DNA from: Beroe forskalii
Lineage: Eukaryota > Ctenophora > Nuda > Beroida > Beroidae
Length of the DNA: 64,000 bases
Assembly: GCA_011033025.1 (NCBI GenBank)
Contig: WFMF01000188.1
Location: 62,001-126,000, forward strand
Direction: 5' to 3'
Part shown: positions 2,406-64,000 of the stretch, one piece after another
Layout: each line of letters begins with the position of its first letter
Numbering within the stretch: the stretch's first letter is position 1
The notes under the pieces: generated by a model
What the model saw: the letters and a program-made list of their open reading frames with translations, nothing else
What the model was told of the DNA's origin: nothing
The model's database searches: none
Position numbers and translations under genes: made by a program

Positions 2406-4103
2406 CTAGATGAAATAGGCAACCAATTTGACACGAGAATCAAGCCAGAATTTCCATATACCCAGCTGTACTTTGTGGTTTCCTCTTTCTATTTCTTTGT
2501 CATGGGATATGATTTTCAGACCTTCTTGATTCCATGAAAGGCCACTGCACAAGACACTGAACTTTTCTCCTTCATTTTCCTTGAAAGAGCCCATAATCAT
2601 TAAATGTAGATCATTGACTTTTAATACCTCAGGATGAACATGGATATCACTAGGATATTCACCTTGGTCAGTTGATATCAAACCGATTTCCAATTTACTA
2701 CTGTTGTCTTTGGAATTGATAACTGGAGTTACCTTCAGCAAAAAACCACACCTCCCTTTATATTTGCAATTAGATGGGCACAATGCTTCGGGTAATAAGA
2801 AGGAATAAGTTTTTTCTGTGTAAAACAAAGTTCGGGCTGTCAAATAAGAGACGTCAAAAATACTTACATCTGTGCCAATAGATTCCCTATCCCTTGCTTT
2901 TGTGACAAACCTACCATTTGCAAAGCTAAACAATTGCTTTGCAATACCTTGACACATCTGCCATGATGATAAGAAATTCTCGGATACCACTGTCCATTTG
3001 TTGAAACGCACAATCTGCAAAATCAACCATAATTGGTACGTTGACAATTTTGTATAGTCAGTTTGATAGCATATATTGAATAAGCCTTCAATAAACATGT
3101 ATAAATTTGGGATAATTCCATATGAATCATGGTAACAAATGTCTAAAAAAGTCTCTATATACATATCTTCAAACATATGAAAGCTACCAAACAGATTTGA
3201 TATCTTAGGGATGAATCGAATCGTTGGTTTAGGAATAAAACCTGACTTTTGAATAGTATTAGATTCAAGACTCTTGTAGTATTCTCTCACAACAAATCGA
3301 TATCTTTTTGTTGAATCTTTTAGTTCAGAAGTATTCAGTTGATCAGACAACTCAAAAACTGTATCAAAAAGTTTTTCAAAGAGGACTGAATCTGTTGATA
3401 TACAGTTGAGTAAGTCCATATTAGAAAGAAGATACATAAAATTTTCGTGAAGCACCAATGGATTTTCTCCCAAACTACCTGTCATGATCTTTATCAATGA
3501 TATAGGTGATTTCTTAGTGATACGTATCATGAGATCAAGATCCTCCATAGGAAGGATACAGTAATTCTTCATGTATGGCTGAATGAATATTGAATCACGA
3601 TTTTGAACAGAGGCAAGTTTTTCCACGATCATATCCAAGAATTCGTTTGATTTCAAAATTCTTGAAATGTACTTTGCCTCGTCAAAGACATATAGTAAAG
3701 ATTCATAATTAGATGAATTATCCACACAACTGATAAGGCTTGAAAAGTAACTTCTGCATTTAGAAATAATCCAGTCAACTTTGAATGTATGAGACATTTT
3801 AATAACGTCTCTAAATATGACTCTATTCAACTGAATCTGTCCACAGTAGAGAGCCCTAATAAAACTTTTCACTGCCTCAGGAGTAAATTCCTCTACAACT
3901 AGAGTGTACTGGTGTAATTCCATGAAAAGATGAACAAATACTGTACTGTGAAAGGAGAGAATGACAGAGTTAGCTTTCATTGATTCACCTCCAGCAAGCT
4001 GAAGTGTAATATTGCCATGAAACTCACATTCTAAGTGCTCCACTCCGAAATCCATGGGAACTGAAACTTTTGGCACAACTATATGTTTCAAATTTGATGC
4101 CAT
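2406..4103 (-). CDS. BTB/POZ-domain protein, tandem paralogue 2
   Basis: Single coding exon of 565 residues. An open frame reaches 4196, but I place the start at the ATG at 4103 (MASNLKHIVVPKV). Paralogue 3 starts at the equivalent place, and an acceptor-like ATCTCAG lies directly before this ATG, so the extra 31 residues are probably intron. The order is an N-terminal BTB/POZ domain (about 10-105), a BACK-like helical region (about 105-290), a variable linker (about 290-330), then a conserved C-terminal half that I cannot assign. That half includes a Cys-containing segment (CPSNCKYKGRCGFLLKVTP) and a DIHVHPEVLKVNDLHL block. The domain order suggests a Cul3 adaptor or scaffold, which is inference. 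It is about 60-65% identical by eye to paralogue 3 over the BTB domain and less so in the C-terminal half. Confidence 0.85.
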   Translation of the reverse strand: MASNLKHIVVPKVSVPMDFGVEHLECEFHGNITLQLAGGESMKANSVILSFHSTVFVHLFMELHQYTLVVEEFTPEAVKSFIRALYCGQIQLNRVIFRDVIKMSHTFKVDWIISKCRSYFSSLISCVDNSSNYESLLYVFDEAKYISRILKSNEFLDMIVEKLASVQNRDSIFIQPYMKNYCILPMEDLDLMIRITKKSPISLIKIMTGSLGENPLVLHENFMYLLSNMDLLNCISTDSVLFEKLFDTVFELSDQLNTSELKDSTKRYRFVVREYYKSLESNTIQKSGFIPKPTIRFIPKISNLFGSFHMFEDMYIETFLDICYHDSYGIIPNLYMFIEGLFNICYQTDYTKLSTYQLWLILQIVRFNKWTVVSENFLSSWQMCQGIAKQLFSFANGRFVTKARDRESIGTDVSIFDVSYLTARTLFYTEKTYSFLLPEALCPSNCKYKGRCGFLLKVTPVINSKDNSSKLEIGLISTDQGEYPSDIHVHPEVLKVNDLHLMIMGSFKENEGEKFSVLCSGLSWNQEGLKIISHDKEIERGNHKVQLGIWKFWLDSRVKLVAYFI

Positions 4104-4200
4104 TCTGAGATAATGTTTCATTACCTTACTAATAAAATGAAGGTAATCAATAAATGAAGATAATTTATACAGTAGGTTGGGGAACAAAAATTTCATGTAA

Positions 4201-4350
4201 ACGACACTTCATCTCATGACACTTTATCTCGCAATATGTCAACTTTATGCAAAGGTAAGGTTCTGGGTTAGGGTGTGGGTATGGGTATTTGGTTACTGTT
4301 AGGACAGGGAGATGAAGTGTCCTGAGATGAAATGTTCGGAGATGAATTGT
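4201..4350. repeat. short imperfect inverted repeat upstream of BTB paralogue 2
   Basis: CACTTCATCTC near 4205 is answered by GAGATGAAGTG near 4310, with further GAGATGAA.TGT copies to about 4350. It may be a small MITE remnant or part of the leader region. No open frame. Confidence 0.35.
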
Positions 4351-4927
4351 CAGGCACCCAGAAGGATATGCTCAAATATGAGATTATTCATTTCTATTCG
4401 TTCATGTTATAGATAACAGGATTCATTGCTATAAAACAGAAACTAGTTGAGTCGTTGAAGTAAAACAGCATACAATATCTTTATTGAAATTAAATTTTAA
4501 ATTCAGCAACTCAACACAGAATAATAGGAATTAGAATAGGTATAAACAAAAATTAATAATTCAAATAAACTCCAACAAAACCCTGTGATATAACATATTA
4601 TCACATTCAAACATCCATTTCAACATTAATTGGTCATACTGGACGTTTGTTATATTACGAATAATAATTTTGATTTTTGATAAATAAATTAAGAAATAAA
4701 CAAATACATAAAAACGTTATAAGTGGGTAAAATGAAAACATCACAAGCTTTCCAAGATTTCAGTAGTCAGTATTAGGTACAATATTATGGTCCTTGTCTT
4801 AAAAACTAAAAATCATTCAAGAATTACAAAAATAAGTTTAAGAAGTCAAAATGAAAAAAGATCATTGTTTACATTGTCTTATTTGGTTTACATTGTCTTA
4901 TTTGGTAATTTCAAGGTCTATCAAGTA

Positions 4928-6643
4928 TTAAATGATATATACAACCAATCTTATGAAAGAATCAAGACACAACTGCCACCTCCCCAGTTGACACCTATGA
5001 TTATCGATGTCAGAGTAAGAAATGATTTCAAGTCCCTTCTCATTCCATGATATGGATCCACATAAAACACCAAATCTGTTGTTAAGTTCATCATGCCTTG
5101 ATTTTCCCATGAGCACAACATGCAGTTTATCTGCTGTCACAATTCCAGGATGTGTATGAACTTGTGTAAGGTATTCCTCTCCAGGGTGAGACAGCAATTG
5201 CACATCCAAAGTTCTGGTTTCATCTTCAACATTAACTTTGGGAGTAACTTTCATCAAGAATCCACATTTTTCATCATCTTTACATTCAGTAGGACGCTTC
5301 TCACGAGGAAGCTGGAAAAAGTAGATTTTCTCACAGTAGAATAGTGTCCGTACTGTCAGAAAAGAGTAGTTATTGTAGTCTGACAAACTCATGGTTGCAC
5401 CAAAGCACTCTTGAGTATTGGAGTCAAGTAGAACACCACTTTTGTGTAGCTTGAGCTGTCTTGCAATACTTTGACACATGCCCCATGATTCTAAAAATCC
5501 TTTTGATACCTTTTTCCAATTTCTAGTCATTCTGATTTTATTGATAGTTTCTACCTCCATGAAGGACATTTTTTCGATATTCTTCAGTGCACACAAGTTA
5601 AATACACCTTCAATTAGTCCATAGAGGCTGGACACATGGGGCGAATTTGAGGTAATTTTGAAAAATTCATTCAGTTGTAAGTCTTCATAAGCAGTGAACC
5701 TACAGAAAAGGTTTGGAACTTTGTCTCCAACTGGGACATTCAGTTTTGGTTGTCGCATGCAAAATTTCTTTGGAGTAGCAAAAGGACTAGCAACTGTAGC
5801 TTGTTCTTTTAAAGAACTATAGTACTTTTTAGCAGTGGACCTATATATAATATTAACACTTTTTGTATCAGAAGCTGACATATTTTCGACGTTTTCCATT
5901 ATCAAGTCAAAAAAACTCTCATAAAGGACTGAATTCTGTATAATACATTTGAGAAGATCTATCTTCTCCAACATGTAGAGAGACTTATCATTGAATTCAA
6001 CTGAACCATCTTCTATGCCTTGCTTCATGATATTGATCAGAGATACAGGTGAAGAGACAGTGATGCGTATCATAAGATCAAGCTCAGCCAAAGGAAGTGT
6101 TTCGTAGTTTTTCATATATGGCTGTACAAATATCAAGTCCCTGTTTTCAACTACAGCTAATCTATCCACAATAACATCCATACAAATGTTTGATCTAATT
6201 GCATTCAGAATGTATTTTGCTTCTTCGAACATATACAGAACGAATTGATAATCGGAGGAGTTGTCTATACACATGGCAAGACTTTCAAAATAACCTGTGC
6301 ATTTTGCAATCATCCAGTCCACTTTGAATGCATGAGACATTTTATTGACATCTCGAAATATCGCTTGATTCAAGTCAACCTGTCCAGAGTAGAGAGCTCT
6401 AACGAAACTTTGCACTGCCCCAGGAGTGAATTCCTCTACATCTAGGGTTGACTGGTGCAATTTCATGAAAAGATTAACAAACACTGGACTGTGAAAGGAG
6501 AGAATGACAGAGTTAGCTTTCATTGATTCACCTCCAGCGAGCTGAAGTGTAACATTGCCATGAAACTCACAATCCAGGTGCTCAACTCCGAAATCCATGG
6601 GAACTGACACCTTTGGCACGACTGTGTTGTTGGAACATGCCAT
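4928..6643 (-). CDS. BTB/POZ-domain protein, tandem paralogue 3
   Basis: Single coding exon of 571 residues starting MACSNNTVVPKVSVPMDFG. The acceptor-like TTACAG is one base upstream of the ATG, the same leader-intron position as in the two other copies. The BTB/POZ domain covers about residues 8-105 (MDFGVEHLDCEFHGNVTLQLAGG, then FVNLFMKLHQSTLDVEEFTPGAV), followed by a BACK-like helical stretch and a long C-terminal region. That region contains LTVRTLFYCEKIYFFQLP, CKDDEKCGFLMKVTP and QVHTHPGIVTADKLHVVLMG, ending LVVYII. The C-terminal half matches nothing I recognise but is shared with paralogue 2, so it is a real family-specific domain. Three head-to-tail copies within 6.7 kb point to recent tandem expansion. 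A nuclear, adaptor or defence role cannot be decided from sequence. Confidence 0.87.
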   Translation of the reverse strand: MACSNNTVVPKVSVPMDFGVEHLDCEFHGNVTLQLAGGESMKANSVILSFHSPVFVNLFMKLHQSTLDVEEFTPGAVQSFVRALYSGQVDLNQAIFRDVNKMSHAFKVDWMIAKCTGYFESLAMCIDNSSDYQFVLYMFEEAKYILNAIRSNICMDVIVDRLAVVENRDLIFVQPYMKNYETLPLAELDLMIRITVSSPVSLINIMKQGIEDGSVEFNDKSLYMLEKIDLLKCIIQNSVLYESFFDLIMENVENMSASDTKSVNIIYRSTAKKYYSSLKEQATVASPFATPKKFCMRQPKLNVPVGDKVPNLFCRFTAYEDLQLNEFFKITSNSPHVSSLYGLIEGVFNLCALKNIEKMSFMEVETINKIRMTRNWKKVSKGFLESWGMCQSIARQLKLHKSGVLLDSNTQECFGATMSLSDYNNYSFLTVRTLFYCEKIYFFQLPREKRPTECKDDEKCGFLMKVTPKVNVEDETRTLDVQLLSHPGEEYLTQVHTHPGIVTADKLHVVLMGKSRHDELNNRFGVLCGSISWNEKGLEIISYSDIDNHRCQLGRWQLCLDSFIRLVVYII

Positions 6644-7453
6644 CCTGTAAGCATTTAAATGTTATATTTTATACTTATTCGAGGTTATATATCAAGATGC
6701 AGATGGTTAAAAGAGGAATAAAATTGAGATTTCCTCTTCATAGATTTCATTTTTCATATCAATTAATATATCAAGCCACTGAAGAAGTATGACCTATGTG
6801 ATCGGCCTATAAGTCTTTAAACTGAAGCTCTTCAGTCAAATCGAGCGAAAAAAAGAAATAATAAAACTAGGTTAAATGTTTAAATGTCGGAAACAGATGG
6901 AAAATCATACTATACAAATCACATACCAAAACTATTTCTGTACAAAGGGTCGCATCTGAAAACTTAAAACATCACTGATACATTGATAGAAAAACGTAAA
7001 GAATTTAAAAGTTCCCAGAAAACGTAAACTACAAAACTTAAAACTGACATGAACGAGATAACATATACAAAAATCGATCACATTCTAATCAACTGAAATA
7101 TACCTATGAATTTCTAAATGTTACAAAAATAACTAAATCTGTTTAAATAGGTATGATTGATAAATGACACTGATATCCCAATGACAATATAATAACTAAC
7201 TAACTTGGTAGGGTTTATCCGTTGAGTTGGAAGGGTCATCAGAGTTCCGACCACCGCGCTGGCGAATAGTCTGCCAGAGAGTTTGACCAGCTGCAGTTGA
7301 AGCCAGCGACCAGAGGCTCGTCCGGTATCAAGGAAAGAAATTTCGACAAGCTAGATTTAAACGTGTCAAAAGTTTCTGCAGTTTTCATATACTGACTTAA
7401 TGATATAAAACTATAAGAGGGGTGGACGACCATTTCCCTACCATGCAAATAAT
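6644..7453. other. intergenic, no supported gene
   Basis: Upstream region of BTB paralogue 3 (leader exon and promoter expected) and 3' flank of the dehydrogenase gene. A short GC-richer minus-strand open frame at 7239-7457 has no recognisable features. Confidence 0.4.
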
Positions 7454-14455: not shown

Positions 14456-15410
14456 CTATGAGGTATATGGGTGTATGGGTAGATGAGTATAGCGTGAGTG
14501 TATACGTGTATGGGTACTGGTAGATGAGTGTAGCGTGAGTGTAGTGGTAAATGCATGTAAGGTGAGTGCGAAGTGATCAGTGTATGGGTAGATGAGTGTA
14601 GCGTCAATGTATGGGTAGAAGGATGAAGCGTGAGTGTATGGGTAGATGAGTGTAGCGTGAGTGTATGGGTAGATGGATGAAGCGTGAATGTATGGGTAGA
14701 TGAGTGTAGCGTGAGTGTATGGGTAGATGAGTGAAGCGTGATCAGTGTATGGGTAGATGGATGTAGCGGGAGTGTATGGGTAGATCATGAGTGTAGCGTG
14801 AATGTATGGGTAGATGGATGCAGCGTGAGTGTATGGGTAGATGGATGTAGCGTGAATGTATGGGTAGATCATGAGTGTAGCGTGAATGTATGGGTAGATG
14901 AGTGTAGCATGAGTGTATGGGTAGATGGATGTAGCATGAGTGTATGGGTAGGTGAGTGTAGCGTGAGTGTATGGGTAGATGAGTGTAGCGTGAGTGTATG
15001 GGTAGATGAGTGTAGCGTAAGTGTATGGGTGGATGAGTGTAGCGTGAGTGTACGGGCAGATGGATGTAGCGTGAGTGTATGGGCAGATGGATGTAGCGTG
15101 AGTGTATGGGTAGATGGATGTAGCGTGAGTGTAAGGGTAGATGGATGTGGCGTGAGTGTATGGGTAGATGAGTGTAGCGTGAGTGTATGGGTAGATGAGT
15201 GTAGCGTGAGTGTATGGGTAGATGAGTATAGCGTGAGTGTATGGGTAGATGAGTGTAGCGTGAGTGTATGGGTAGATGGATCTAGCATGAGTGTATGGGT
15301 AGATGGATGTAGCATGAGTGTATGGGTAGATGAGTGTAGCGTGAGTGTATGGGTAGATGGATGTAGCGTGATCAGTGTATGGGTAGATGGATAAAGCGTG
15401 AGTGAAAGCA
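14456..15410. repeat. 27-bp minisatellite, about 35 copies
   Basis: The unit is close to GTATGGGTAGATGAGTGTAG plus CGTGAGT, with GATGGATG variants. The period of 27 is divisible by three, so both strands stay open for hundreds of codons (repeating SVWVDECSV on plus and YPYTHATLI on minus). Occasional one-codon changes (ATCAGT) are indel variants. I do not consider these open frames to be genes. Confidence 0.95.
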
Positions 15411-19618: not shown

Positions 19619-19929
19619 AATGGGGGTGGCAAGTTTGGTATACCGGACAATGGGGGAGCCAAAATGCCTCCCCTTAATCTTGGTATACATCATAACAGAG
19701 TTAACCATACCCAGGCTCGCCCGACACTTGGACTAACCTCTAATCACGGGCTCCCCTATACACCGCTCCCCTTAATCTTGGGCATACCCACTTCCCTTGT
19801 TATAAGAGAAAAAATGGAACCATCTGTGCAAAAATTATTTACAAAGGTTTTATTGTTGGAATGTGTTCTAATGGGTCCCATGAAGGCCTCCAAAGAGTGT
19901 TAAGGTGCTACCTTGAAGGGAAAAGTCAG

Positions 19930-20600
19930 GAGGGCCACGCCCTTTTTCGACCGTGGGAAATTATGAGAGAAAATGAAAATTCAGTTTTAATATGATATAT
20001 GGCATGTGGGTACCTAAACCTATGTTTTTTGGGACGGGGAATCGATTCCAAACACTTTCAAAGTCGTATCTATCTTCCTTGACCCAAAACCGGCCACGCC
20101 CATTTTTGCGCAAGACATTTTTGAGGTCTAAAAGCTATTTTTCAGATTAATGCGATATATGGCATATAAGTACTCTAAACCCATGTTTTTTGGGACGAGA
20201 AATCGATTCCGCACATTATCAAAGTCGTATCTACCTTCTTTGCCCCAAAACCGGCCACGCCCACTTTTTGCGTATGGGATTTTTTGACCGCCACTAAGGT
20301 ATTTTTCAGTGAAGTTCGATGTATGGCATGTAGGTACTCTAAACCCATGTTTTTTGGGACGAGAAATCGATTCCACGCATTATAAAAGTTGTATCTACCT
20401 TCCTTGACTCAACACCGGCCACGCCCATTTTTGTGCAAGTCATTTTTGAGGTAGAAAAGCTATTTTTCAGATTAATGTGATATATGGCATGCAGGTACTC
20501 TAAACCCATGTTTTTGGGACGAGAAACTGATTCCGCACATTATCAAAGTCGTGTCGACCTTCCTTGACCCTATACCAGCCACGCCCACTTTTTGCGTATT
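19930..20600. repeat. satellite array, left arm
   Basis: Alternating units of about 150-170 bp contain CCGGCCACGCCCA, GATATATGGCAT, AAACCCATGTTTTTTGGGAC and CAAAGTCGTATCTACCTTC. The array pairs with the inverted array at 22270-23120. Confidence 0.85.
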
Positions 20601-20619
20601 TATTGGCAGATAATCCTCT

Positions 20620-22200
20620 TATCTGTGGTCATTGGGGTCTATTGCCCAATGGTCGATATTGATATACAACCGCTATGTCTCTAAGCTATCTGTCCTCTGC
20701 TGCACAGGCTTTTGGATTTGCACTTGCTTTCGCCTAATGTGGTCGCCATCCCTCAGTTGCTTGTGAAGGGTCTTGCCACGGCATCCAGCACCTACCAAGG
20801 TGCACACATACATAATGCATACATGTGGGGATAGACAGGACATAGTGTGCAAGGGTGGAGGGTTCTTCTCCAGGGATAAAGCCAAAGGTTGAGCAGTTTG
20901 CCTAGGAGTATTGGTTGTGCAGCAGAACCAGCAAACACTGAACCCACCCGAATTTGGCTCTATTCCAAGAAAGTGATTTTACCAGATAAATGTTTGATCA
21001 CCTAACGTAAGCAAGCGAAAGTCATGTTTCCTTTCCCAGCGACCAAAAGTGACCAAAAGTCACCCATTTAGGTATGTACTCTAAATCCAGGATAAATTGT
21101 AGAGATACATCCAATCTCTACCATCTTACCATGAAAAGATTTCCAAGCCATAACGGGATCACTGTGATATCTTGATATGGATGGTAATTAGATTTGTACA
21201 TGTGGGGTACCAGAAAAGACCAATTGTGAGGAACTCTCTTCTCGGCTGACCAGGCTTCTGGCTGCTATCGCAAACAATTTCAGAAATTTTACTTCAACAG
21301 GAATTTTCCAATGAAGCATTGAAAGTGATATTTCGCCGAGAAAATAGGGTTCCAGAGGTCGCTTGGCAATGGCTTCGTGATAGTGGGACACTCGGACACA
21401 ACGAACCTGCTCCGGGTTGAAGAGATGGGCACGGCTGAAATGATAAGCAGGACAAGAGAGAAAACCCCGCTGTGCTCAGGTTAACAGAATGGCCGAGCAG
21501 AAAACAAGAGGTTAGGTTTTAAGGTTGGGCATGTCGTGAAGAATGGGGATCAAGTTGGATGCCTACAGGGATAGCTGACAAGGAAGTATTCAGACAAATA
21601 CACTGCCATAGAAATCTTGAAGGGCAGCTGGGCATTGAATTGATATTAACATAAGTGGATGTCCATATTTTATCCTTTCTATCCAGGATGGAAAGGAGGA
21701 GTGAATGTCTGACATTTTAATGAATTTATCGACCCCAGTGAAAGACGGAGAGAAAAATTCAAAGCCAGTGAGTGAGGATTGATAAACACTTCACCTCAAT
21801 AACAGCAGAGCCTCGATCTAGCAGAGCAGACAACAAACAGAGAAGTGGAGAAAGTTATGAAGTTATGACAGTAGCAGTCGGAAAGGAACTGGTCGGGCAG
21901 GAGCAGAAAAGCACCTCAATAAATTTCATTCCTTGTAGTGTGCTGGGAGGAATAGGGATACATCACCCGTTTTCATTTGTTAGACATTAGTTGACTGCCG
22001 CGCCTCCTTGATTTCGGGGCTGGTTTTTGTTTCCAGAATTTTGTCTATCACCTGTAGAGGACGACCATAGCAGACCAATGTACTTTTATGTGGGAAGAAC
22101 ATCAACAAGTGTTATACCTCGAATGACTAACCTAAACTACTGCAGCTAGTTTGACCAGATACTCAGAAAATCAATAATCAATTGTGATAATAACATGTTT
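20620..22200. other. unique middle of the nested element, no gene seen
   Basis: About 1.6 kb of non-repetitive DNA lies between the two satellite arms. Open frames are short and unconvincing. It could be a relic of a former internal region or captured host DNA. Confidence 0.4.
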
Positions 22201-22269
22201 AGAGTACCAACATGCCTTATATCTTATGTGACTGAGCAATATATTTTAGACTGGTCAAAAATACTCTGC

Positions 22270-23120
22270 ACAAAAAAGTAGCCGTGGCCACAAACGGATC
22301 AAGGAAGTTCAGTACGACTTTGATATTAATGTGTGGAATCGATTCTATTTCTTTGTTCAAACACATGGGTTAGGGTATCTACATCCTAAATATCGTATTT
22401 AACTGAAAAATAACTTTATGGTGGGCAAAAATTCCATACGCAAAAAGTGGGCGTGGCTGGTATTGGGTCAAGGAAGGTCGAGACGACTTTTATAATGTGT
22501 GGAATCGATTTCTCGTCCCAAAAAACATGGGTTTAGAGTACCTACATGCCATATATCACATTAATCTGAAAAATAGCTTTTCTACCTCAAAAATGACTTG
22601 CACAAAAATGGGCGTGGCCGGTTTTGAGTCAAGGAAGGTAGATACGACTTTTATAATGCGTGGAATCGATTTCTCGTCCCAAAAAACATAGGTTTAGAGT
22701 ACCTACATGCCATACATCGCATTTCACTGAAAAATACCTTTGTGGCGGTCAAAAAATCCCATACACAAAAAGTGGGCGTGGCCGGTATTGGGGCAAAGAA
22801 GGTAGATACGACTTTGATAATGTGTGGAATCGATTTCTCGTCCCAAAAAACATGGGTTTAGAGTACATACATGCCATATATCGCATTAATCTGAAAAATA
22901 GCGTTTAGACCTCAAAAATGCCTTGCGCAAAAATGGGCGTGGCCGGTTTTGGGTCAAGGAAGGTAGATACGACTTTGAAAGTGTTTGGAATCGATTCTCC
23001 GTCCCAAAAAACATAGGTTTAGGATACCCACATGTCATATATCATATTAAAACTGAATTTTCATTTTTCTCTCAAAATTTCTCACGGTCGAAAAAGGGCG
23101 TGGCCCTCCTGACTTTTCCC
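22270..23120. repeat. satellite array, right arm (inverted)
   Basis: The same units as 19930-20600 in reverse orientation, with about one more copy. Recurrent blocks are GAAGGTAGATACGACTTT, GTGTGGAATCGATTTCTCGT, GGGTTTAGAGTACCTACATG and GGGCGTGGCCGG. Confidence 0.85.
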
Positions 23121-23259
23121 TTCAAGGTAGCACCTTAACACTCTTTGGAGACCTTCATGGGACCTATTAGAACACATTCCAACAATAAAACCTTTGTAAA
23201 TAATTTTTGCACAGATCGTGGCATTTTTTGCCGTTTTTTACCTTATAATTGGTCTCACC

Positions 23260-23640
23260 CCTAAACAAGGGATCGCCCATACCAGACTCGCCCTTATCCT
23301 GGGCTATACCGCATATGGCTCCCCCCTACCTTGGGCTTCTGGAATGCCTTGGGCTAACCCCCAAACACGGGATCAACCATACCAGACCAACCCTTATCCT
23401 GGGCTACACCGCATATGGCTCCACCCTACCTTGGGCTTCTGCAATGCCTTGGGCTAACCCCCAAACACGGGATCCACCATACCAGACCAACCCTTATCCT
23501 GGGCTACACCGCATATGGCTCCACCCTACCTTGGGCTTCTGCAATGCCTTGGGCTAACCCCCAAACACGGGATCCACCATACTAGACCAACCCTTATCCT
23601 GGGCTATACCGCATATGGCTCCACCCTACCTTGGGCTCCC
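23260..23640. repeat. ~119-bp tandem units in the left arm, mirrored at 26450-26815
   Basis: Units contain CCCTTATCCTGGGCTA, ACCGCATATGGCTCC and CTTGGGCTTCTG. The same number of units occurs inverted in the right arm, so the expansion predates formation of the palindrome or the arms are kept alike by conversion. Confidence 0.8.
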
Positions 23641-23739
23641 CCTCGCTTTAAATATGGGCTCCCCTCCGTTATATTGGGCCACCCCATTCACTCACCCCAT
23701 GTCCTCTCCCCCCTAGTTTGGGCTCCCCCATGACCAAAA

Positions 23740-24945
23740 CCCGGACTACCCCCGTATCAACTCGGGCTCCCTCATGATAACTCGGGCTACCCCCATAAAA
23801 ACTCGGGCTACCCCTATACTAACTCGGGCTCCCCCCAGTATTAACTCAGGCTCCCCCAATATTAACTCGGGCTCCCCATCATAACTTGGGCTCCCCCTTG
23901 ATAACTCGGGCTACCCCCCCCCATTATTACTCGGGCTCTCCCCCATGTTATCTCGGGCTCCCCCGTATCAACTTTGGCTCCCCCACTATTTGGCTCCCCC
24001 ATACCAACTTGGGCTCCCCCGTACCAACTTGGGCTCCCCCGGACTAACTTGGGCTCCCCCATATTAACTCGGGCTCCCCCGTACTAACTTGGGCTCCCCC
24101 ATACCAACTTGGGCTCCCCCGTACTATCTGGGCTCCCCCGTGCTATCAGGGCTCCCCCGTACTATCTGGGCTCCCCCGTACTAACTTGGGCTCCCCCGTA
24201 CTATCTGGACTCCCCTGTACTAACTTGGGCTCCCCCGCACTATCTGGGCTCCCCCACACTAACTGGGCTCCCCCATACCAACTTGGGCTCCCCCATACTA
24301 ACTTGGGCCCCACCGTACTATCTGGGCTCCCCCATACCAACTTGGGCTCCCCCGTACTAACTTGGGCTCCCCGTACTAACTTGGGCTCCCCCGTACTAAC
24401 TTGTGCTCCCCCGTACTATCTGGGCTCCCCCGTACTATCAGGGCTCCCCCGTACTATCTGGGCTCCCCCGCACTAACTGGGCTCCCCCATACCAACTTGG
24501 GTTCCCCCATACCAACTTGGGCTCCCCCATGCTAACTTGGGCTCCCCCGTACTATCTGGGCTCCCCGTACCAACTTGGGCTCCCCCGTACTAACTTGGGC
24601 TCCCCGTACTAACTTGGCTCCCCCGTACTAACTTGTGCTCCCCCGTACTATCTGGGCTCCCCCGTACTATCAGGGCTCCCCCGTACTATCTGGGCTCCCC
24701 CGCACTAACTGGGCTCCCCCATACCAACTTGGGCTCCCCCATGCTAACTTGGGCTCCCCCGTACTATCTGGGCTCCCCCGTACTATCAGGGCTCCTCCGT
24801 ACTATCTGGGCTCACCCGTACTATCAGGGCTCCCCCGCACTATTTGGGCTCCCCCGTACTAACTTGGGCTCCCCCGTACTAACTTGGGCTGCCCCGTAGT
24901 AACTTGGGCTCCCCCATACCAACTTGGGCTCCCCACACATACTAA
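23740..24945. repeat. GGGCTCCCCC minisatellite, expanded in the left arm only
   Basis: Dozens of ~20-bp units, mostly TACTAACTTGGGCTCCCCCG, TACTATCTGGGCTCCCCCG and ATACCAACTTGGGCTCCCCC. The right arm has only about 20 copies (25908-26340), so the arms differ in length by roughly 0.7 kb. Local blocks are themselves duplicated: 24390-24550 recurs at 24620-24780. Confidence 0.9.
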
Positions 24946-25110
24946 AAATTTTGCGGGGCTCCGCCTCCCTTACGCCTGCCAGGGGTTTCACCCCTGGACC
25001 TCAAATTATTGTGTACAAGAGGTCGAATGCATGTTATTATGATGGAGATAAATAGATCATCCTTGACCATATATATCAGATTTTCATATCTCTACAGTGA
25101 AGGTTTTACG

Positions 25111-25822
25111 GTCATACGAGCGAATTACTGCGGGAGACTCCCGGGAGTCCTCCGGGAGCCCTCCGGGAGTCCTCCGGGAGCCCTCCGGGAGTACTCCGAG
25201 AGTCCTCCGGGAGTACTCCAGGAGTACTCCGAGAGTCCCCCGGGAGTCCTCCGGGAGTCCCCCGGGAGTCCTACGGGAGTCCTACGGGAGTACCACGGGA
25301 GTACCACGGGAGTACCCCGGGAGTACCCCGGGAGTCCTACGGGAGTCCTACGGGAGTACCCCGGGACTCCTACGGGAGTACCCCGGGAGTCCTACGGGAG
25401 TGCCACGGGAGTACCCTGGGAGTCCCCCGGGAGTCCTACGGGAGTACCCCGGGAGTACCTCGGGAGTCCTACGGGAGTACCCCGGGAGTCCTACGGGAGT
25501 ACCCGTGGTACTCCCGTAGGACTCCCGGGGTACTCCCGTGGCACTCCCGGGGTACTCCAGTAGGACTCCCGGGGGACTCTCGGAGGACTCTCGGAGTACT
25601 CCCGGAGGGCTCCCGGAGGACTCCCGGAGGGCTCCCGGAGGACTCCCGGAGGACTCCCGGAGGGCTCCCGGAGGGCTCCCGGAGGACTCCCGGAGGGCTC
25701 CCGGAGGGCTCCCGGAGGGCTCCCGGAGGGCTCCCGGAGGGCTCCCGGAGGGCTCCCGGAGGGCTCCCGGAGGACTCCCGGGAGTCTCCCGGGAGTCTCC
25801 CGCAGTAATTCGCTCGTATGAC
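25111..25822. mobile_element. 712-bp foldback element with 12-bp inverted minisatellite
   Basis: Terminal repeats GTCATACGAGCGAATTACTG (25111) and its complement (ending 25822) enclose a GC-rich array of GGGAGTCCTCCG, GGGAGTACCCC and GGGAGTCCTACG units. The array switches strand at about 25505, so almost the whole 712 bp is one palindrome. It sits asymmetrically in the loop of the outer palindrome, suggesting a separate insertion. Long open frames (repeated REPSGSPPGALR-type) are repeat translations. Confidence 0.8.
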
Positions 25823-27109
25823 TGGCAGCCATTTTCGTTAAATTTGCCATATTTTGGAAAATAATTTCTGGAATTTCACAGCAGTTATTTCTGAACGTTT
25901 CCCTATGGGGGAGCCCAAGTTGATACGGGGGAGCCCAAGTTGATACGGGGGAGCCCAAGTTAGTACGGGGAGCCCGAGTTGGTTTAGGGGAGCCCCAGAT
26001 AGTACGAGAGAGCCCAAGTTAATATGGGGGAGCCCAAGTTAGTCTGGGGAGCCTAAGCTGGTACGGGGGAGCCTGCTGGTGGGGGAGCCAAATAGTGGGG
26101 AGCCAAAGTTGATACGGGGGAGCCCGAGATAACATGGGGGAGAGCCCGAGTAATGATGGGGGGGAGCCCGAGTTATCAAGGGGGAGCCCAAGTTATCATG
26201 GGGAGCCCGAGTTAATATTTGGGGAGCCCGAGTTAATACTGGGGGAGCCCGAGTTAGTATAGGGGTAGCCCGAGTTTTTATGGGGGTAGCCCGAGTTATC
26301 ATGAGGGAGCCCGAGTTGATACGGGGGTAGTCCGGGTTTTGGTCATGGGGGAGCCCAAACTAGGGGGGAGAGGACATGGGGTGAGTGAATGGGGTGGCCC
26401 AATATAACGGAGGGGAGCCCATATTTAAAGCGAGGGGGAGCCCAAGGTAGGGTGGAGCCATATGCGGTATAGCCCAGGATAAGGGTTGGTCTAGTATGGT
26501 GGATCCCGTGTTTGGGGGTTAGCCCAAGGCATTGCAGAAGCCCAAGGTAGGGTGGAGCCATATGCGGTGTAGCCCAGGATAAGGGTTGGTCTGGTATGGT
26601 GGATCCCGTGTTTGGGGGTTAGCCCAAGGCATTGCAGAAGCCCAAGGTAGGGTGGAGCCATATGCGGTGTAGCCCAGGATAAGGGTTGGTCTGGTATGGT
26701 TGATCCCGTGTTTGGGGGTTAGCCCAAGGCATTCCAGAAGCCCAAGGTAGGGGGGAGCCATATGCGGTATAGCCCAGGATAAGGGCGAGTCTGGTATGGG
26801 CGATCCCTTGTTTAGGGGTGAGACCAAGGGAAGTGGGTATGCCCAAGATTAAGGGGAGCGGTGTATAGGGGAGCCCGTGATTAGAGGTTAGTCCAAGTGT
26901 CGGGCGAGCCTGGGTATGGTTAACTCTGTTATGATGTATACCAGGTTTAGGAGAAGTCCGTGTATCCAAAACGGATACAGGGGCTCCCATAACTTGCCAC
27001 CCCCAATTTAGCACAATACTAGAAACCAGTTGATATCATCCATTATCACTAATTTGAGTAAACAATGCACCCCTGAACCAAAACAAAACAACACAACACA
27101 CATCATCAT

Positions 27110-45551: not shown

Positions 45552-46705
45552 TGCAATCTTATCATTTCTCGTTTGCGTTGAATTAACAGCTCTCGCTTAT
45601 CAGTGATTTGATTCTAAGAGTGTATTGTAGAAAATACACGATCATTTACATTCGTACATGAGGAATACAATCATGGCGGACTTTAAACTCAGTGACCTGT
45701 ATGAAATGGAGCAGGAAATTGAATCTGTTGTGAGTGCTGTTATGGGTCTTGGTGGCTGCAGAGCAAAGTCAGAGTTGAGTGGTTCACTAATGAAACATGC
45801 CGAAAAAGATGCTATGGTGAAAGTAGTTTGTGAGCTGATCAATATGATGGAAAGGAGTACAACAGTTTTGAAGTCAGCAGCGTGCTCAATTAACAATCTT
45901 CAAGCTGACCAGATTGTTAACCAGAAAAAGATCATGGAGTTGCAAGAAGTGAACAGAGGAGAAACTGTTAAGGCAGTCACCGAGACCGCCCAATCAGAAA
46001 TTAAGAGCTACAGTGATGCGGTGAAGAAAGGAATCCGATCAGACAGTATCACAACGCAGAAGTTAGAAGATGCAGTCAAGACAGCAGTCAAGAGTGAGGA
46101 GCGTGAAAGGTGCGTTGTTATGTTTGGGATGCCAGAAGAAGTTGGGGAGAACGTGCTTCACGAGAGTGTTGGGAAACTGTTAGAAGAGATTGCTCCCTCA
46201 CAAGACTCCAGCAGGTCTGGTACTTCATGCAGTCGAATTGGGAGGAAAAGACCTGACATCAGCAGACCCGTCCGAGTTTGTTTCACTGATCGTACATCAG
46301 CTAACTCAGTCCTCCGGAATTCAAGTAAGCTAAAGAACTCTGAGAGATTCAGCAAGGTCTTCATCAGTCCTGACAGGACTCCAGCTGAGCGCGAGGAGAG
46401 GAGGAAGCTTGTGGCAGCGCTGAAGGAGAAGGTACGGACGGAACCTCAGCAGTACCACTACTTGAAGAACGGGGAGATCTGCAGCAGAGAGCACCTGCAG
46501 GGCTACAGAACTACTGAAGAGTCAGAGGAGAACGACTCTGATATTGATCAGAGGATGGCAGAAGCAGTGCTGCTTGAACTGAAGGAGGCATTTGATGGCT
46601 TTGAACAGTCTATTGATAAGCGTTTGGAGAAGATGTGCTAGTGTTATGATAAGACTTCACCTCCCTCAGACCACAAGTCATGAGGAGAGTGGAGATGTTA
46701 CTATA
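45552..46705 (+). mobile_element. ORF1-only non-LTR element, copy 1 (3' tail displaced to 50271-50345)
   Basis: It starts at TTGCAATCTTATCATTTCTC, exactly as copy 2 does at 53801. It has a ~120-bp leader, one ORF, and a short 3' UTR reading ...GGAGATGTTACTATA. There a 3.6-kb insertion intervenes, and the tail (TACTGACAATTTACATTGTT, twice, then an A run) resumes at 50271. No ORF2, endonuclease or RT is present in either copy. Confidence 0.8.
45673..46641 (+). CDS. LINE-type ORF1 protein, intact copy
   Basis: 322 residues from MADFKLSDLYEMEQEIESVV (an upstream in-frame ATG at 45658 would add five). A helical, coiled-coil-like stretch (about 40-105: ELINMMERSTTVLKSA, NLQADQIVNQKKIMELQE) is followed by a charged linker. 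An RRM-like domain covers about 145-225 (RCVVMFGMPEEVGENVLHES, SCSRIGRKRPDISRPVRVCF), and a C-terminal domain about 225-270 (FSKVFISPDRTPAEREERRK, LVAALKEKV). The end is acidic (EESEENDSDIDQRM). This is the layout of RNA-binding ORF1 proteins of CR1/L2/L1-like LINEs. It is intact and about 99% identical to copy 2, so it was mobile recently, presumably with enzymes supplied by another element. Confidence 0.8.
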   Translation: MADFKLSDLYEMEQEIESVVSAVMGLGGCRAKSELSGSLMKHAEKDAMVKVVCELINMMERSTTVLKSAACSINNLQADQIVNQKKIMELQEVNRGETVKAVTETAQSEIKSYSDAVKKGIRSDSITTQKLEDAVKTAVKSEERERCVVMFGMPEEVGENVLHESVGKLLEEIAPSQDSSRSGTSCSRIGRKRPDISRPVRVCFTDRTSANSVLRNSSKLKNSERFSKVFISPDRTPAEREERRKLVAALKEKVRTEPQQYHYLKNGEICSREHLQGYRTTEESEENDSDIDQRMAEAVLLELKEAFDGFEQSIDKRLEKMC

Positions 46706-50430: not shown

Positions 50431-51655
50431 TGGCCCCTGTTAACAAAAATCATGCCTTAGAGCTTTTTCTCCATAAGATGGACATTGCAGTCAAGGACTC
50501 GAAAGAAAGAAAAGGAGGGGGTGATAATATTTCAGTTGAGGAGAGAAAAGCACTCAATGAAATGAAAAGATGGGACAACCTAGTTGTAAGGCCCTATGAT
50601 AAGGGGTTGGGTTTGTAGTTGATGACCTTCAGAATTACAAGGAAGAATACAATCCGAAATTCAAAATCAACAGACCTACAAGATTGTTGAGAACAAAGAA
50701 ACAGCGATCTCTGAAATTCACTCACGTATAAAAGAGTGGGCTGAAAAATATAAAGATGATCTTTCTCCTACATTGATAGAGTGGCTGATAGATGAGAATG
50801 CTTCCTTTGGGTACATATACATGAACTACAAGGCACATAAACCTGAAAAAACAATACCCAGGAGATACATAACCTCAGGATGTGGATCCCCTACAGAGCG
50901 TCTCTCAACGTGGATTGAGTACTACCTCAAGCCATTCCTCTTACAGACTGGAAGATACTCCCACTTCCTCAGAGACCTATTGAGATATAATGCCAGTAGG
51001 AATGAAGGAAAATCCCCCAGGTGTTATTAGCTTCTTGGGACATTGAGTCCATGTATCCAAACATAGACAATGAGGTAGGACTCAAAGCTTGTGAAAAACT
51101 CCTCAGAGAACGTCCAGAAGAAGAACCATCTACAGCAAGCTTGGTGGATGCTATCAAAATAACACTAGAAGAAAACATCGCAGAGTTTGATGGGGTAGTA
51201 GTAAAACAGATTAGTGGTACTGCCATGGGACCCCACCATGCCTGTTCGTATGCTGACATTACAGTGGACAAAACAATAGATCAAAGAGTAATGTCAGAGG
51301 AAAATCCTTGGTTAGCCAAGATAGAGCTCCAGTCATTTGACATTTGGCTGAATAGCCTAGAACCAAAACTAAACTTCACCAAAACATTCAGTTTTGAAAG
51401 TATTGAATTCCTAGATCTGAAGCTAGGTGTAAAAGACTCTGAAATTACCACAACAATGTTCAGTAAGCCATCAGATACACACTCTTACCTGTTACCTTCT
51501 TCATGTCACCCTGCACATATATGCAAAAACATACCGTTTGGGGTAATGAAAGAATAAAGCGAAACTGTTCAGATGAAAGCAGTAGAGCGGAGTGCTAACG
51601 AATATAAGGGCACCTGCTCAATAGGCAATACAGTGAAGAAGTGATTGAAATTTCC
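50430..51655 (+). pseudogene. Penelope-like element reverse transcriptase, broken
   Basis: Family blocks in order: WDNLVVRPYDKG, SFGYIYMNYKAHKPEKTIPR then RYITSGCGSPTERLSTW, LASWDIESMYPNIDNEVGLK (RT motif A), KQISGTAMGPHHACSYADIT (motif B), FSFESIEFLDLKLGV and YLLPSSCHPAHICKNIPFGV. Frameshifts occur near 50610-50640, 51025 and 51550; after the last, RIKRNCSDESSRAEC and LLNRQYSEEVIE continue the family C-terminus. Between ENPWLAKIEL and QSFDIWLNSL the segment that should hold motif C (xxDD) is missing in frame. The GIY-YIG endonuclease is not seen; the sequence deteriorates at 51655. Confidence 0.85.
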
Positions 51656-52925: not shown

Positions 52926-55900
52926 TTAGGCGTCCTTCATCAGTCGTCTGATCAGTTCTGAAACACCGCCATTGGGTTAGCTCGTAGTGGTTGAAGGTAT
53001 TGATCCATGCCAGTAAATTTGTTTCAGGAATGGATCCATGCCTAGTGGTTTGCAGGCATTGATCCATGCCTAGTGGTTTGCTAAGTTTCTCCATGGTTAT
53101 CATGGCTGCAATGTGCATTACTATGGTTACAAGGCACAAAGAATTGACACGTCTCTGACATGTCAGACTATTCCTCCGCACTACTTAACGTAATTAAGTT
53201 ATCAATAACCAGGGGAATGCTAGCTATTATTGACAGACTATGTCGTTACACTGGAAGTGTTGCTGTTATTGACAGAGTACTATGTGGTTTCTGGAATGCG
53301 TCATTGACACTTACCATCGTACTGTACATCTCCTTTGTCGTCTTCCAATCCAGCAAAGATCTGATCTACTTCAGCATCACTCAGCTTCTCTCCTGTAACG
53401 ATTTATCCGTTACTATGGCGAATATGGTAACATTGAGCACAAGATCACTGTTACCATGGTAGCATGAAAATGTCGCTGTTACCATGGTATCGAGAGCATG
53501 TCGCTGTTTCCATGGTTACATGAACATGCCATTGTTTTAAATTTACACAGTAACATGAAAATGTCGCTGTTACCATGGTAACGAGAATATTTCATTGTCA
53601 CCATGGTAACATGAGCATTTCACTGTTACCATTTCACTGTTTCGTGGGAAAAGTGGACAAATCCAAGCATTTTGAGATCATACAAGCATATTATGGGCGG
53701 GTCCTCAGGGTAAATCAAGATTGGGATCCTATTAAACAGTTAGTCACACAAATGTTTGTTAATGATAGAGTCGAAGGTGAAAAGATAGGATTTTATGGAA
53801 GTTGCAATCTTATCATTTCTCGTTTGCGTTGAATTAACAGCCCTCGCTTATCAGTGATTTGATTCTAAGAGTGTATTGTAGAAAATACACGATCATTTAC
53901 ATTCGTACATGAGGAATACAATCATGGCGGACTTTAAACTCAGTGACCTGTATGAAATGGAGCAGGAAATTGAATCTGTTGTGAGTGCTGTTATGGGTCT
54001 TGGTGGCTGCAGAGCAAAGTCAGAGTTGAGTGGTTCACTAATGAAACATGCCGAAAAAGATGCTATGGTGAAAGTAGTTTGTGAGCTGATCAATATGATG
54101 GAAAGGAGTACAACAGTTTTGAAGTCAGCAGCGTGCTCAATTAACAATCTTCAAGCTGACCAGATTGTTGACCAGAAAAAGATCATGGAGTTGCAAGAAG
54201 TGAACAGAGGAGAAACTGTTAAGGCAGTCACCGAGACCGCCCAATCAGAAATTAAGAGCTACAGTGATGCGGTGAAGAAAGGAATCCGATCAGACAGTAT
54301 CACAACGCAGAAGTTAGAAGATGCAGTCAAGACAGCAGTCAAGAGTGAGAAGCGTGAAAGGTGCGTTGTTATGTTTGGGATGCCAGAAGAAGTTGGGGAG
54401 AACGTGCTTCACGAGAGTGTTGGGAAACTGTTGGAAGAGATTGCTCCCTCACAAGACTCCAGCAGGTCTGGTACTTCATGCAGTCGAATTGGGAGGAAAA
54501 GACCTGACATCAGCAGACCCGTCCGAGTTTGTTTCACTGATCGTACATCAGCTAACTCAGTCCTCCGGAATTCAAGTAAGCTAAAGAACTCTGAGAGATT
54601 CAGCAAGGTCTTCATCAGTCCTGACAGGACTCCAGCTGAGCGCGAGGAGAGGAGGAAGCTTGTGGCAGCGCTGAAGGAGAAGGTACGGACGGAACCTCAG
54701 CAGTACCACTACTTGAAGAACAGGGGAGATCTACAACAGAGAGCACCTGCAGGGCTACAGAACTACTGAAGAGTCAGAGGAGAACGACTCTGATATTGAT
54801 CAGAGGATGGCAGAAGCAGTGCTGCTTGAACTGAAGGAGGCATTTGATGGCTTTGAACAGTCTATTGATAAGCGTTTGGAGAAGGTGTGCTAGTGTTATG
54901 ATAAGACTTCACCTCCCTCAGACCACAAGTCATGAGGAGAGTGGAGATGTTACTATACTGACAATTTACATTGTTAAGATGATATTTTATTGATATTACT
55001 ATACTGACAATCTACATTGTTAAAAAAAAAAAAAAAAAAAAAAAGCTTCTCTCCTGTAACGATTTATCCGTTACTATGGCGAATATGGTAACATTGAGCA
55101 CAAGATCACTGTTACCATGGTAGCATGAAAATGTCGCTGTTACCATGGTATCGAGAGCATGTCGCTGTTTCCATGGTTACATGAACATGCCATTGTTTTC
55201 AATTTACACAGTAACATGAAAATGTCGCTGTTACCATGGTAACGAGGATATGTCATTGTCACTATGGTAACATGAGCATTTCACTGTTACCATGGTAACA
55301 TGAACATGTAACTGTTTCCATGGTGACATGAACATGTGACTGTTTCCATGGTAACATGAACATGTCATTGTTTCCATAGTAACATGAACATGTCACTGTT
55401 ACCATGGTAACATGAACGTTTTTTCTTCCATAGTAACATGAAAATGTCACTGTTTCCATGATAACATGAACATTTTTCGTTTCCATAGCATTAGCAACAT
55501 GGACATGTTACTGTTTCCATAGTAACATGAACATGTCACTGTTTCCATGATAACATGAACATTTCACTGTTACCATGATAACTGCCATTATTTCCATAGT
55601 AACATGAACTTGGTAACCGTGGTAACATGGTTGCCTTTTTCCTATTTCAATGTAACTAGCCCACACAATTCACCGACTGGTATACATAGCACGTTACTCT
55701 GACAATCTTACAAAACTCCAATTTTAGCGGTTTGTTACTTCACAGCTTATTCACAATGTAGTTGGATGGTTTCATGGTTGCGTTTAAGGTTCTATGGCTT
55801 CAATCTTCATGTCAGTACTCGAATTACGTAATATTGTGATGTTATTTTGGTGTTAACACCTTGCACCATCGTGGTTCCTTAACTAGTGATAACTATACAT

Positions 55901-61570: not shown

Positions 61571-61968
61571 AGGTGCCCCTTTAGTTCAGTGCTAGAGTAG
61601 CATTGTACTGGGCCTGACTATCTATCCTAAACTTAGAGCCTTATTCTGATTATAATGGACTGCTACCCTACAACTATTAATCTTTTTCTTGATGTGACTT
61701 TTTATGGTTGGAAAATCGAAGTTTCATAGTGCTATCAGTACTGCCTACGTTCTGTTTATTACACACACTAAATCAGTAATCACATAAATAACATGCTCAT
61801 CCTCACAAGAAATAGAATGGTTTATATTATGAAATTGTTTAGTGGAGAGCGACTGGATTTTAACTGAATTTTCTGATAAAAAGAACTTAGGTACATAAAT
61901 TACATTTTCCACAATTGATGTTGCCTAAAACTTTATCATTGTTGTCTGTATTATATATATATATATAT

Positions 61969-62352
61969 AGGATAGCCAAAAACAATTGAAAATTGTTTGG
62001 GTTTCGCAGCCACTCCAGTACCTGAAATAATACGATAAAAATCATTGATATGAATTTTAATCGCAGCCCGGTCGTGGCGGTGCATTATGTTTGCTATTCG
62101 ATTTGACCAATACGTTTATCACATGTCTGTGTTTAGGTACAGCTCGATCTTGACAAAGTCAAAGAGGGACTTACACAATGAATTAAAGAGCTGTTATTCC
62201 ATTACTACATTGAAATTGCAGTGGTCTACTACCACCGTGCACCGCCACGACCGGGCTGCGATTAAAATTCATATCAATAATTTTTATCGTATTATTTCAG
62301 GTACTGGAGTGGTGAAACCCAAACAATTTTCAATTGTTTTTGGCTATCCATA
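61969..62352. mobile_element. ~384-bp inverted-repeat element
   Basis: The left arm starts GGATAGCCAAAAACAATTGA and continues about 115 bp to CCCGGTCGTGGCGGTGCA. The right arm (about 62237-62352) is its reverse complement, ending ...TTTTTGGCTATCC. The loop is about 150 bp. It abuts a (TA)n tract. A third copy of the terminus starts at about 63953. Confidence 0.85.
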
Positions 62353-62394
62353 TCACTCTTTTTTGGCAAAAAAACTTACTACATCCAGTACAAG

Positions 62395-63300
62395 TTGAGA
62401 TAATTGCTTTTATTAGTCAATTATTTCATTAAAGCAGTTTACAACCGGTACTCAAATTTAATGTACAAAACGTAATTTCGGCTCTAGTAAATAATACCGT
62501 TAGAATTAAGTCGGTATCATTTCTAATTTTTGAGCTATACGAGATAATAACTTTAATTGGCCAATTATTCAATTACGCGGTTGACAACCTGTACTCAAAT
62601 TAACGTATAATCCGTAATTTTGGCTCTAGTTAATGATGCCGTTAGAATTAAGTCGTTGTCATCTTTTGCTTTCGAGTTATACACGATAATTACTTTAATT
62701 GGTCAATTATCTCATTAGGCGGTTGAGAACAGGTACTCAAGTTAACCGTATAAAACGTAATTTTGGCTCTAGTTAATGATGCCGTTAGAATTATAAAGTC
62801 GTTATCATCTTTTGTTTTCGAGTTATACACGATAATTACTTTAATTGGTCAATTATCTCATTAGGCGGTTGAGAGCCGGTACTCAAGTTAGACGTATAAA
62901 GCGTTATTTTGGCTTAAGTTAATGATATCGTTGGAATAAAGTCGCTATCATTTCTACTTTCTGAGCTATAAGCGATAATTACTTTAATTGGCCAATTATC
63001 TCATTAGCCGGTTGAAAACCGGTACTCAAATTAAAAGCATATAACGTTATTTTGGCTCTAGTTAATGATACCGTTAGAATTAAGTCGCTATCATTTCTAC
63101 TTTCAGAGTTATACGCGATAATTACTTTAATTGGCCAATTATCTCATTAGGCGGTTGAAAACCGATACGCAAATTAAACACATATAACGTTGTTGTGGCT
63201 CTAGTTAATGATACCGTTGGAATTAAGCCGCTATCATTTTTACTTTCTGAGTTATAAGCGATAATTACTTTAATTGGTCAATTATCCAATTAAGGATTTG
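62395..63300. repeat. satellite, about six copies of ~140-150 bp
   Basis: Each unit has GATAATTACTTTAATTGG, CAATTATCTCATTA, GGTACTCAAATTAA, TTTTGGCTCTAGTTAATGAT and ACCGTTAGAATTAAGTCG. Period 137-150 with small indels. It follows directly on the inverted-repeat element. Confidence 0.9.
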
Positions 63301-63749
63301 GCGAAAATATTTTTAACATGCCCTAGTGCACGCACCTCATTCTAGAGTTTCAAATGCCGTTTAGATTACGGTTCTATCTTTTATGGTTCTCCCGTGAAGT
63401 GTTTTCCCGTTTTGTGGTGGGAGGAGGAGGAGTCGTCGTCGTCGTACCGTCCATAACACTAATTTTTGGCAAAAACAGGATTTTTTTGATAATTTATTGT
63501 GAAAAACGGTGCGACTGATTTTCATGAAATTTTCAGGGATTGTTCTTTATACAATGGACTACAACTGTGCAAATTTTCATGTCCGACAGAGCTCCTTAAC
63601 ATGTCTAAAACGCGACTCGAAAATCGCGTTTTTCGCAAATCACTGTATTTTTATATAGTGGGCGCTGGCAAACTCATTTTTCAAAACATGAAAATTGGTT
63701 CCGCTACGACTTTCAGCACTTCGTGCTGGTACTGCTGGCTCTTTTACTG

Positions 63750-63905
63750 TGTCTGGCCAGCGGTCCCGGCCCTTCGGGCCGGGACTGCTGCCATCGGCCC
63801 TTCGGGCCGATAGCACCGCCCTTGGGCGGGGTTGCTGATCGTTCGGAGATGCCCTCGGCCCTTCGGGCCGAGGGCATCTGCCCTTCGGGCAGATGCCCTC
63901 GGTGT
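63750..63905. repeat. row of four GC hairpins with TTCG loops
   Basis: GTCCCGGCCC-TTCG-GGCCGGGAC, ATCGGCCC-TTCG-GGCCGAT, ATGCCCTCGGCCC-TTCG-GGCCGAGGGCAT and ATCTGCCC-TTCG-GGCAGAT lie in series, with a further CCGCCCTTGGGCGG. The translated open frames across this stretch are by-products of the palindromes. Confidence 0.85.
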
Positions 63906-63952
63906 TTTTTTCCGTGGCCGCGAGCGCTTGCCAGCGCCCTGATATATATATA

Positions 63953-64000
63953 TGGATAGCCAAAAACAATTGAAAATTGTTTGGGTTTCGCAGCCACTCC
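63953..64000 (+). repeat. third copy of the GGATAGCC terminus, cut by the window end
   Basis: GGATAGCCAAAAACAATTGA to GCAGCCACTCC repeats 61969-62018 in the same orientation, again after a short (TA)n. Confidence 0.85.

Follow-up and report, generated by a model that had tools for sequence, protein, structure and literature searches.

How does a palindromic element that encodes no protein come to move, and how did three such palindromes come to lie inside one another? Both questions are raised by a locus of the ctenophore Beroe forskalii at positions 19622-27004 of the window, by which we mean the whole 64,000-nucleotide stretch analysed (C234:62001-126000; contig WFMF01000188.1). At this locus, a foldback element of ~3.9 kb (without its insert) is split by a second foldback element in its left arm and holds a third, GC-rich foldback array near its centre. 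The three layers are three separate repeated mobile families, each with its own ends and, at this locus, without a recognised protein. We consider it very probable that the locus is a nest of three mobile families whose outer member is a Foldback-like, protein-less representative of the ISL2EU-like (PHIS) lineage, built up by the steps proposed below.

The outer element, a putative ISL2EU-like non-autonomous foldback to which no strand is assigned, starts and stops with inverted 14-bp ends, GGGGGTGGCAAGTT, at 19622 and 27004. Immediately outside them, on the plus strand, AAT stands on both sides, at 19619-19621 and 27005-27007, as the target duplication of this copy. One terminus is an L-type end segment (19622-19799, plus strand) and the other an R-type segment (26954-27004, minus strand) with the hairpin TGTATCC-GTTTT-GGATACA. 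The end segments 19621-19799 and 26825-27005 agree at 86%, and the arms 23249-24180 and 25904-26827 at 95.6% over 935 columns, including 587 nt at 100%. Each arm contains a 20-bp minisatellite, with ~60 copies on the left (23749-24934, minus strand) and ~21 on the right (25907-26327, plus strand).

The inner element (19800-23248, plus strand; 3449 bp) has TTATAAG ends and sits in the left outer arm between two copies of TTG, read on the plus strand at its ends (19797-19799 and 23249-23251). Its arms, made of 161-bp repeats (19809-20599, plus strand, and 22436-23229, minus strand), are 95.8% alike in inverted orientation and enclose a centre (20600-22180, plus strand) common to 19 other copies, in which no gene was recognised. 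The opposite outer arm preserves the empty site of this insertion (26785-26864, minus strand), matching the flanks joined with one TTG at 80/80 bases. The third element, a 712-bp array of 11-bp units without assigned strand, occupies 25111-25822, near the outer centre. The original prediction, made from the letters of the window, had described these three layers and their termini, the TTATAAG ends with their TTG duplication and the opposite arm as an empty site, all of which were recovered here; it had also spoken of independently expanding minisatellites, which do differ in length between the arms. The search with each terminus that it had set as a test beforehand, run on a genome of 216,145,372 bases in 1134 contigs, found other copies for all three layers.

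The outer family is well represented in this genome: its end pattern AATGGGGGTGGCAAGTT, with at most one mismatch, gave 75+84 matches as against 0+1 for the reversed control. Past the 14-bp end, 114 ends could be assigned to two types, 53 to L (first 23 bases, at most two mismatches) and 61 to R (first 25 bases, at most two mismatches), and an end segment similar to the R type occurs in relatives on contigs C358, C469 and C170. Ends facing inward form 37 pairs genome-wide. Target duplications were counted on all facing pairs less than 12 kb apart from typed ends, with the flank left free in the pattern (n=35); a 2-bp flank match was present in 32 of them (31 AT and 1 AC), and AAT/AAT in the window pair alone. 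The single AC/AC pair (C408, L057) suggests that the duplicated bases derive from the target. Empty sites were also found. The joined flanks of one copy, L018, occur uninterrupted at window positions 63950-64000 (51/51 bases, CAATTG with a single AT), with further empty sites at 61965-62022 (98%) and 62300-62373 (93.5%), and those of another, L014, are uninterrupted in L018 (91%). Pair flanks and empty sites therefore identify the usual outer target as AT preceded by A and followed by T (A-AT-T).

The AAT flanks of the original prediction are present on both sides of the window copy, whereas the usual duplication of the family is AT. AAT stands immediately outside 50 of the 53 L-type and 46 of the 61 R-type ends; as the usual duplication it is ruled out, 31 of the 35 facing pairs having AT. 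For the comparison of whole copies, 20 of the 37 pairs were fetched and taken together with L057 and the window copy (22 in all). The fetched pairs had been selected for an exact AATGGGGG at both ends, so that the 2-bp match in 21 of these 22 copies (L057 included) is largely built in by the selection.

Three further observations were made on this family. The region holding the empty sites of L018 (window 61965-64000) consists of a 143-bp tandem array (62399-63286) and adjacent copies, which contain the insertion target of L018. L028 (C1075:6800-16200), a copy of the outer type, has two L ends, and the flanks beyond them mirror each other; it represents either an extensive palindrome or an artefact of the contig. 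Finally, L055 (C155:156000-164000) is part of a 15-kb outer-type copy with an interior reverse-transcriptase frame (PF00078, 9.7e-27), which is probably a nested long interspersed nuclear element (LINE).

We found no transposase in the window's outer element, as the original prediction had stated for every layer, but a sister subfamily elsewhere in the genome holds pieces of one. The sister end AATGGGGTTGGCAAGT, with at most one mismatch, was matched 151+148 times (control 1+1), a count in which the window-type ends, one base different from the sister end, are included. The DDE transposase domain PF13359 (DDE_Tnp_4) has 35 matches in the genome, some resembling exons of one gene. Among the sister ends listed (100 of 299), at least eight of these 35 matches are found no more than 9 kb inward of an end, where 0.15 would be expected by chance, and at least five of the eight lie between two facing sister ends. 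In three such elements (on C469, on C170 and L056, the last on C358 and 8.8 kb long), the initial 45 bp agree with the window R end at 37, 37 and 41 positions, respectively, and the ends agree with the window L end at 36, 35 and 35 of 43. The likeness runs past the common 14 bp; among 500 shuffles, at most one was as good. Their flanks read AAT before and ATT after the element, as the search required, its pattern including AAT. In L056 the minisatellite arms are akin to the window copy's own (~73-81% in the pieces compared), and a C-terminal transposase piece adjoins one of them (PF13359, 3.2e-10); the piece on C469 matches the same domain at 2.7e-13. In the PDB, the transposase piece retrieved only weak matches, three in number, with alginate lyase as target (E 0.71). 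The outer family thus has a sister that carries transposase pieces, and the transposase of this sister would presumably be what moves the window family.

Han et al. (2015; PMC4482050) describe ISL2EU elements as duplicating AT within A-AT-T and as having ends that start with GG; they report duplication of TWA in Harbinger and of ANT in Pangu, and no duplication in Spy. Several observations nevertheless weigh against our placement of the outer element. Two of the 35 facing pairs (C603, C521) show no duplication, and the window copy itself is flanked by AAT/AAT, not AT. The PF13359 pieces belong to the sister subfamily GGGGTTGG, not to the window's GGGGGTGG family, and the sister transposase is known only as pieces of 72 and 135 residues. 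The eight sister-linked matches are spread over five contigs and are not fully independent, because four of them share C170 and some look like exons; the other 27 of the 35 have no sister end nearby among the matches listed. YqaJ (PF09588), usual in autonomous ISL2EU, had no match in the genome at E<=0.001 in a search whose controls matched only in two bacteria. The choice of ISL2EU over another PHIS group is moreover based on the target and the ends rather than a tree of transposases.

The missing YqaJ match, together with the 3-bp AAT of the window copy, leaves some room for an assignment to PIF/Harbinger, Pangu or Spy, groups that share the same transposase domain family. We regard this as unlikely, since the AT duplication, preceded by A and followed by T, is the target that Han et al. 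(PMC4482050) state for ISL2EU.

The inner family is a separate DNA transposon family. Its left ends were matched 18+16 times and its right ends 17+18 times, with 0+0 for the reversed-pattern controls, and its 1581-base centre is covered over 685-1581 bases in the 19 other copies, with a highest piece identity of 91-100%. Twenty regions were fetched, which with the window makes 21 copies; both ends are readable in 15, and L029, L033, L038, L044, L045 and L046 were omitted from the duplication count. All 15 readable copies have a 3-bp duplication of varied sequence, none reaching 4 bp; 14 were read by script and the remaining one, L035, whose end is mutated, reads TAA/TAA at its true end. The empty site of the inner insertion is also found in other outer copies, including the sister copy L019 (80/80).

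No transposase of the inner family was found in its longer copies or beside six unpaired inner ends (L049-L054). The longest stop-free stretch of the centre has 101 codons; 10 of its 15 stop-free pieces (>=45 residues) were searched against Pfam with a best E of 0.17, and a search for the ISAzo13-type transposase PF07592 gave no match, its controls being equally silent. The extra DNA of three longer copies appears to consist of nested insertions (L047, L031 and L042), that of L047 containing a reverse-transcriptase piece. The insert of L031 (element ~2484-3448) has a 9-bp duplication read by eye, GGGTTAGGG, and a 211-codon frame with no family in Pfam or NCBIfam; the end of this frame resembles transposases of Mutator-like elements (MULEs). 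The insert of L042 has CATAGCTGCC ends and an 8-bp duplication read by eye, TCGTCCCA. L034 holds two nested inserts, bounded by G runs and then CCAACC.

Least explained of the three layers is the array family, which shows no duplication of its target. It has 27-bp inverted ends, GGTCATACGAGCGAATTACTGCGGGAG; the array ends start GGTCATACGAGCG, a correction to the original prediction. The conserved end begins GGTCATACG, and the right end of the window array is AGTCATACG. The end TACGAGCGAATTACTGCGGGAG has 113+129 = 242 matches genome-wide (reversed control 0+0), and facing ends are separated by 55 bp to ~4 kb, the bases beyond them being unrelated, for example TAG, ATC, CTG or CCC. Among the matches listed (100 of 147), 20 facing pairs could be read; none has a 2- or 3-bp target duplication, and one flank base is shared in four of them, about the chance level. 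Across the 22 outer copies compared, the array site is filled in two, holds a remnant of the array right end in one (L010), is empty in nine and was not located in ten. The two filled copies, the window copy and L019, have identical junctions around arrays of 712 and ~150 bp, respectively. Six of the nine array-free copies show the site as TTTTACGATTGGCAG, and the empty site is given as TTTTACGATTGGCAGCC. Filling changes TTTTACG-AT-TGGCAGCC into TTTTACG-array-TGGCAGCC; the AT is missing from the filled site.

Could the array instead be immobile, a short palindrome that slippage has enlarged where it stood? Its variable length and the lack of a 2- or 3-bp duplication in the 20 pairs would suit such an origin. 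We nonetheless find it improbable, given that the same 22-bp end recurs 242 times, in many facing pairs with unrelated bases outside, and that the short, array-free site is present in nine outer copies. As to how the array moves, we suggest very tentatively, and with more doubt than belief, that it is a mobile GC-rich foldback family which inserts without duplication while replacing ~2 bp, by some route other than the standard staggered-cut DDE cut-and-paste, such as hairpin capture at breaks.

The order in which the three families came together can be read from the sister outer copy L019, which lies on the same contig at a distance of 62 kb. No other arms come as close to the window copy's as those of L019 (99.2%), and L019 holds the array without the inner element. 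Its 400-bp flanks are unlike those of the window copy, their only matches in the window being to a repeat at 34.5-34.9 kb. From the common array junctions and these unrelated flanks it follows that the array entered an ancestor and that outer element and array afterwards travelled together as one composite; since L019 is without the inner element, the inner insertion came later, in the window copy. The insertion history announced by the original prediction is thus supported both by L019 and by the intact opposite arm, which together give the relative order of insertions at one locus.

We envisage for the window copy, as the most probable course, a sequence that would start with a transposase which a relative with similar ends produces elsewhere and which binds the outer GGGGGTGGCAAGTT ends. 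The outer element would then be cut out and joined into an AATT target, with duplication of the AT. A member of the array family entered the centre of one outer copy, and the composite of outer element and array moved on together, at least two of its array-bearing descendants now lying on this contig. The inner element, an unrelated DNA transposon that makes 3-bp duplications, entered the left arm of the window copy at a later time, creating the TTG duplication. Throughout, the arms may lengthen and shorten by ordinary tandem-repeat slippage, with which the differing array and minisatellite lengths are consistent.

Of 44 outer arms only 1, and of 40 inner arms none, had its own partner as nearest neighbour, so there is no concerted arm evolution in the sets examined. 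Within-copy conversion as the force that keeps the arms alike was rejected on these same counts, and arms that are not homogenised within copies speak against inter-arm conversion as a dominant force. The 20-bp arm unit GGGGGAGCCCAAGTTAGTAC may resemble the outer end GGGGGTGGCAAGTT, a likeness that is suggestive only: its score was reached in 52 of 5000 shuffles, and in 212 of 5000 when the G run was kept.

The long, internally repetitive inverted arms of the outer element are like those of Galileo and Foldback (PMC3573991), so that a classical Foldback/Galileo (P superfamily) or MULE-foldback origin had to be weighed. This origin is very unlikely: the outer element has GG ends and a 2-bp duplication in A-AT-T with empty sites, and PF13359 pieces lie inside elements with similar ends, no genome search having been aimed at P or MULE transposases. 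The duplications made by Foldback and Galileo are longer than 2 bp, whereas a 2-bp match was found in 32 of 35 outer pairs. That mirrored arms and nesting are artefacts of assembly, as the mirrored flanks of L028 on C1075 might hint by analogy with a collapsed or chimeric contig, can practically be dismissed, about 20 outer and about 20 inner copies having the same arms and distinct flanks.

Elsewhere in the window, a pair of almost identical open frames, 336 and 295 codons long (45631-46641 and 53882-54769), has the appearance of the first gene in a repeated element; their weak Pfam match to UL92 is probably spurious. A 183-codon frame containing WDIESMYPNID (51006-51557) has no Pfam match and resembles a Penelope-like reverse transcriptase. 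Two adjoining BTB-domain genes on the minus strand (2406-6661) appear to be a tandem duplicate. A 27-bp tandem array of ~30 copies (14579-15404) leaves two frames open on the minus strand and one on the plus strand.

Foldback elements are often without a visible owner. Here, target, ends and sister subfamily of the outer element point to ISL2EU, and the Foldback-like architecture therefore seems to have arisen again in another superfamily. With three foldback families at once, this genome also offers a chance to study how arms grow.

Of the three families, the inner one shares with Zator its 3-bp duplications of no fixed sequence, a trait that Zator has in common with other groups (PMC10045372); no transposase was found for the inner family. 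The array resembles Spy of the PHIS groups in the absence of a target duplication (0/20 pairs among the matches listed) and differs from it in not lying within AAATTT, its flanks being variable and its empty site TTTTACGATTGGCAGCC. For the outer element, the features given above for ISL2EU recur in the AT duplicated within A-AT-T, in the GG-starting ends, GGGGGTGGCAAGTT, and in relatives with similar ends that hold PF13359 DDE transposase pieces, these last in the sister subfamily only. The window family departs from that description in having Foldback-like minisatellite arms and no protein, and among the matches listed in our literature search there was no report of an ISL2EU element with foldback arms. 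Those arms, long, inverted, built of tandem repeats and variable in length, are shared with Foldback, Galileo and Tetris of Drosophila (PMC4079207, PMC3573991), of which Galileo is assigned to the P superfamily. The outer element differs from Foldback and Galileo in duplicating 2 bp and in its associated transposase, PF13359. Foldback-like arms on an ISL2EU chassis are thus apparently a new variant of a known architecture.

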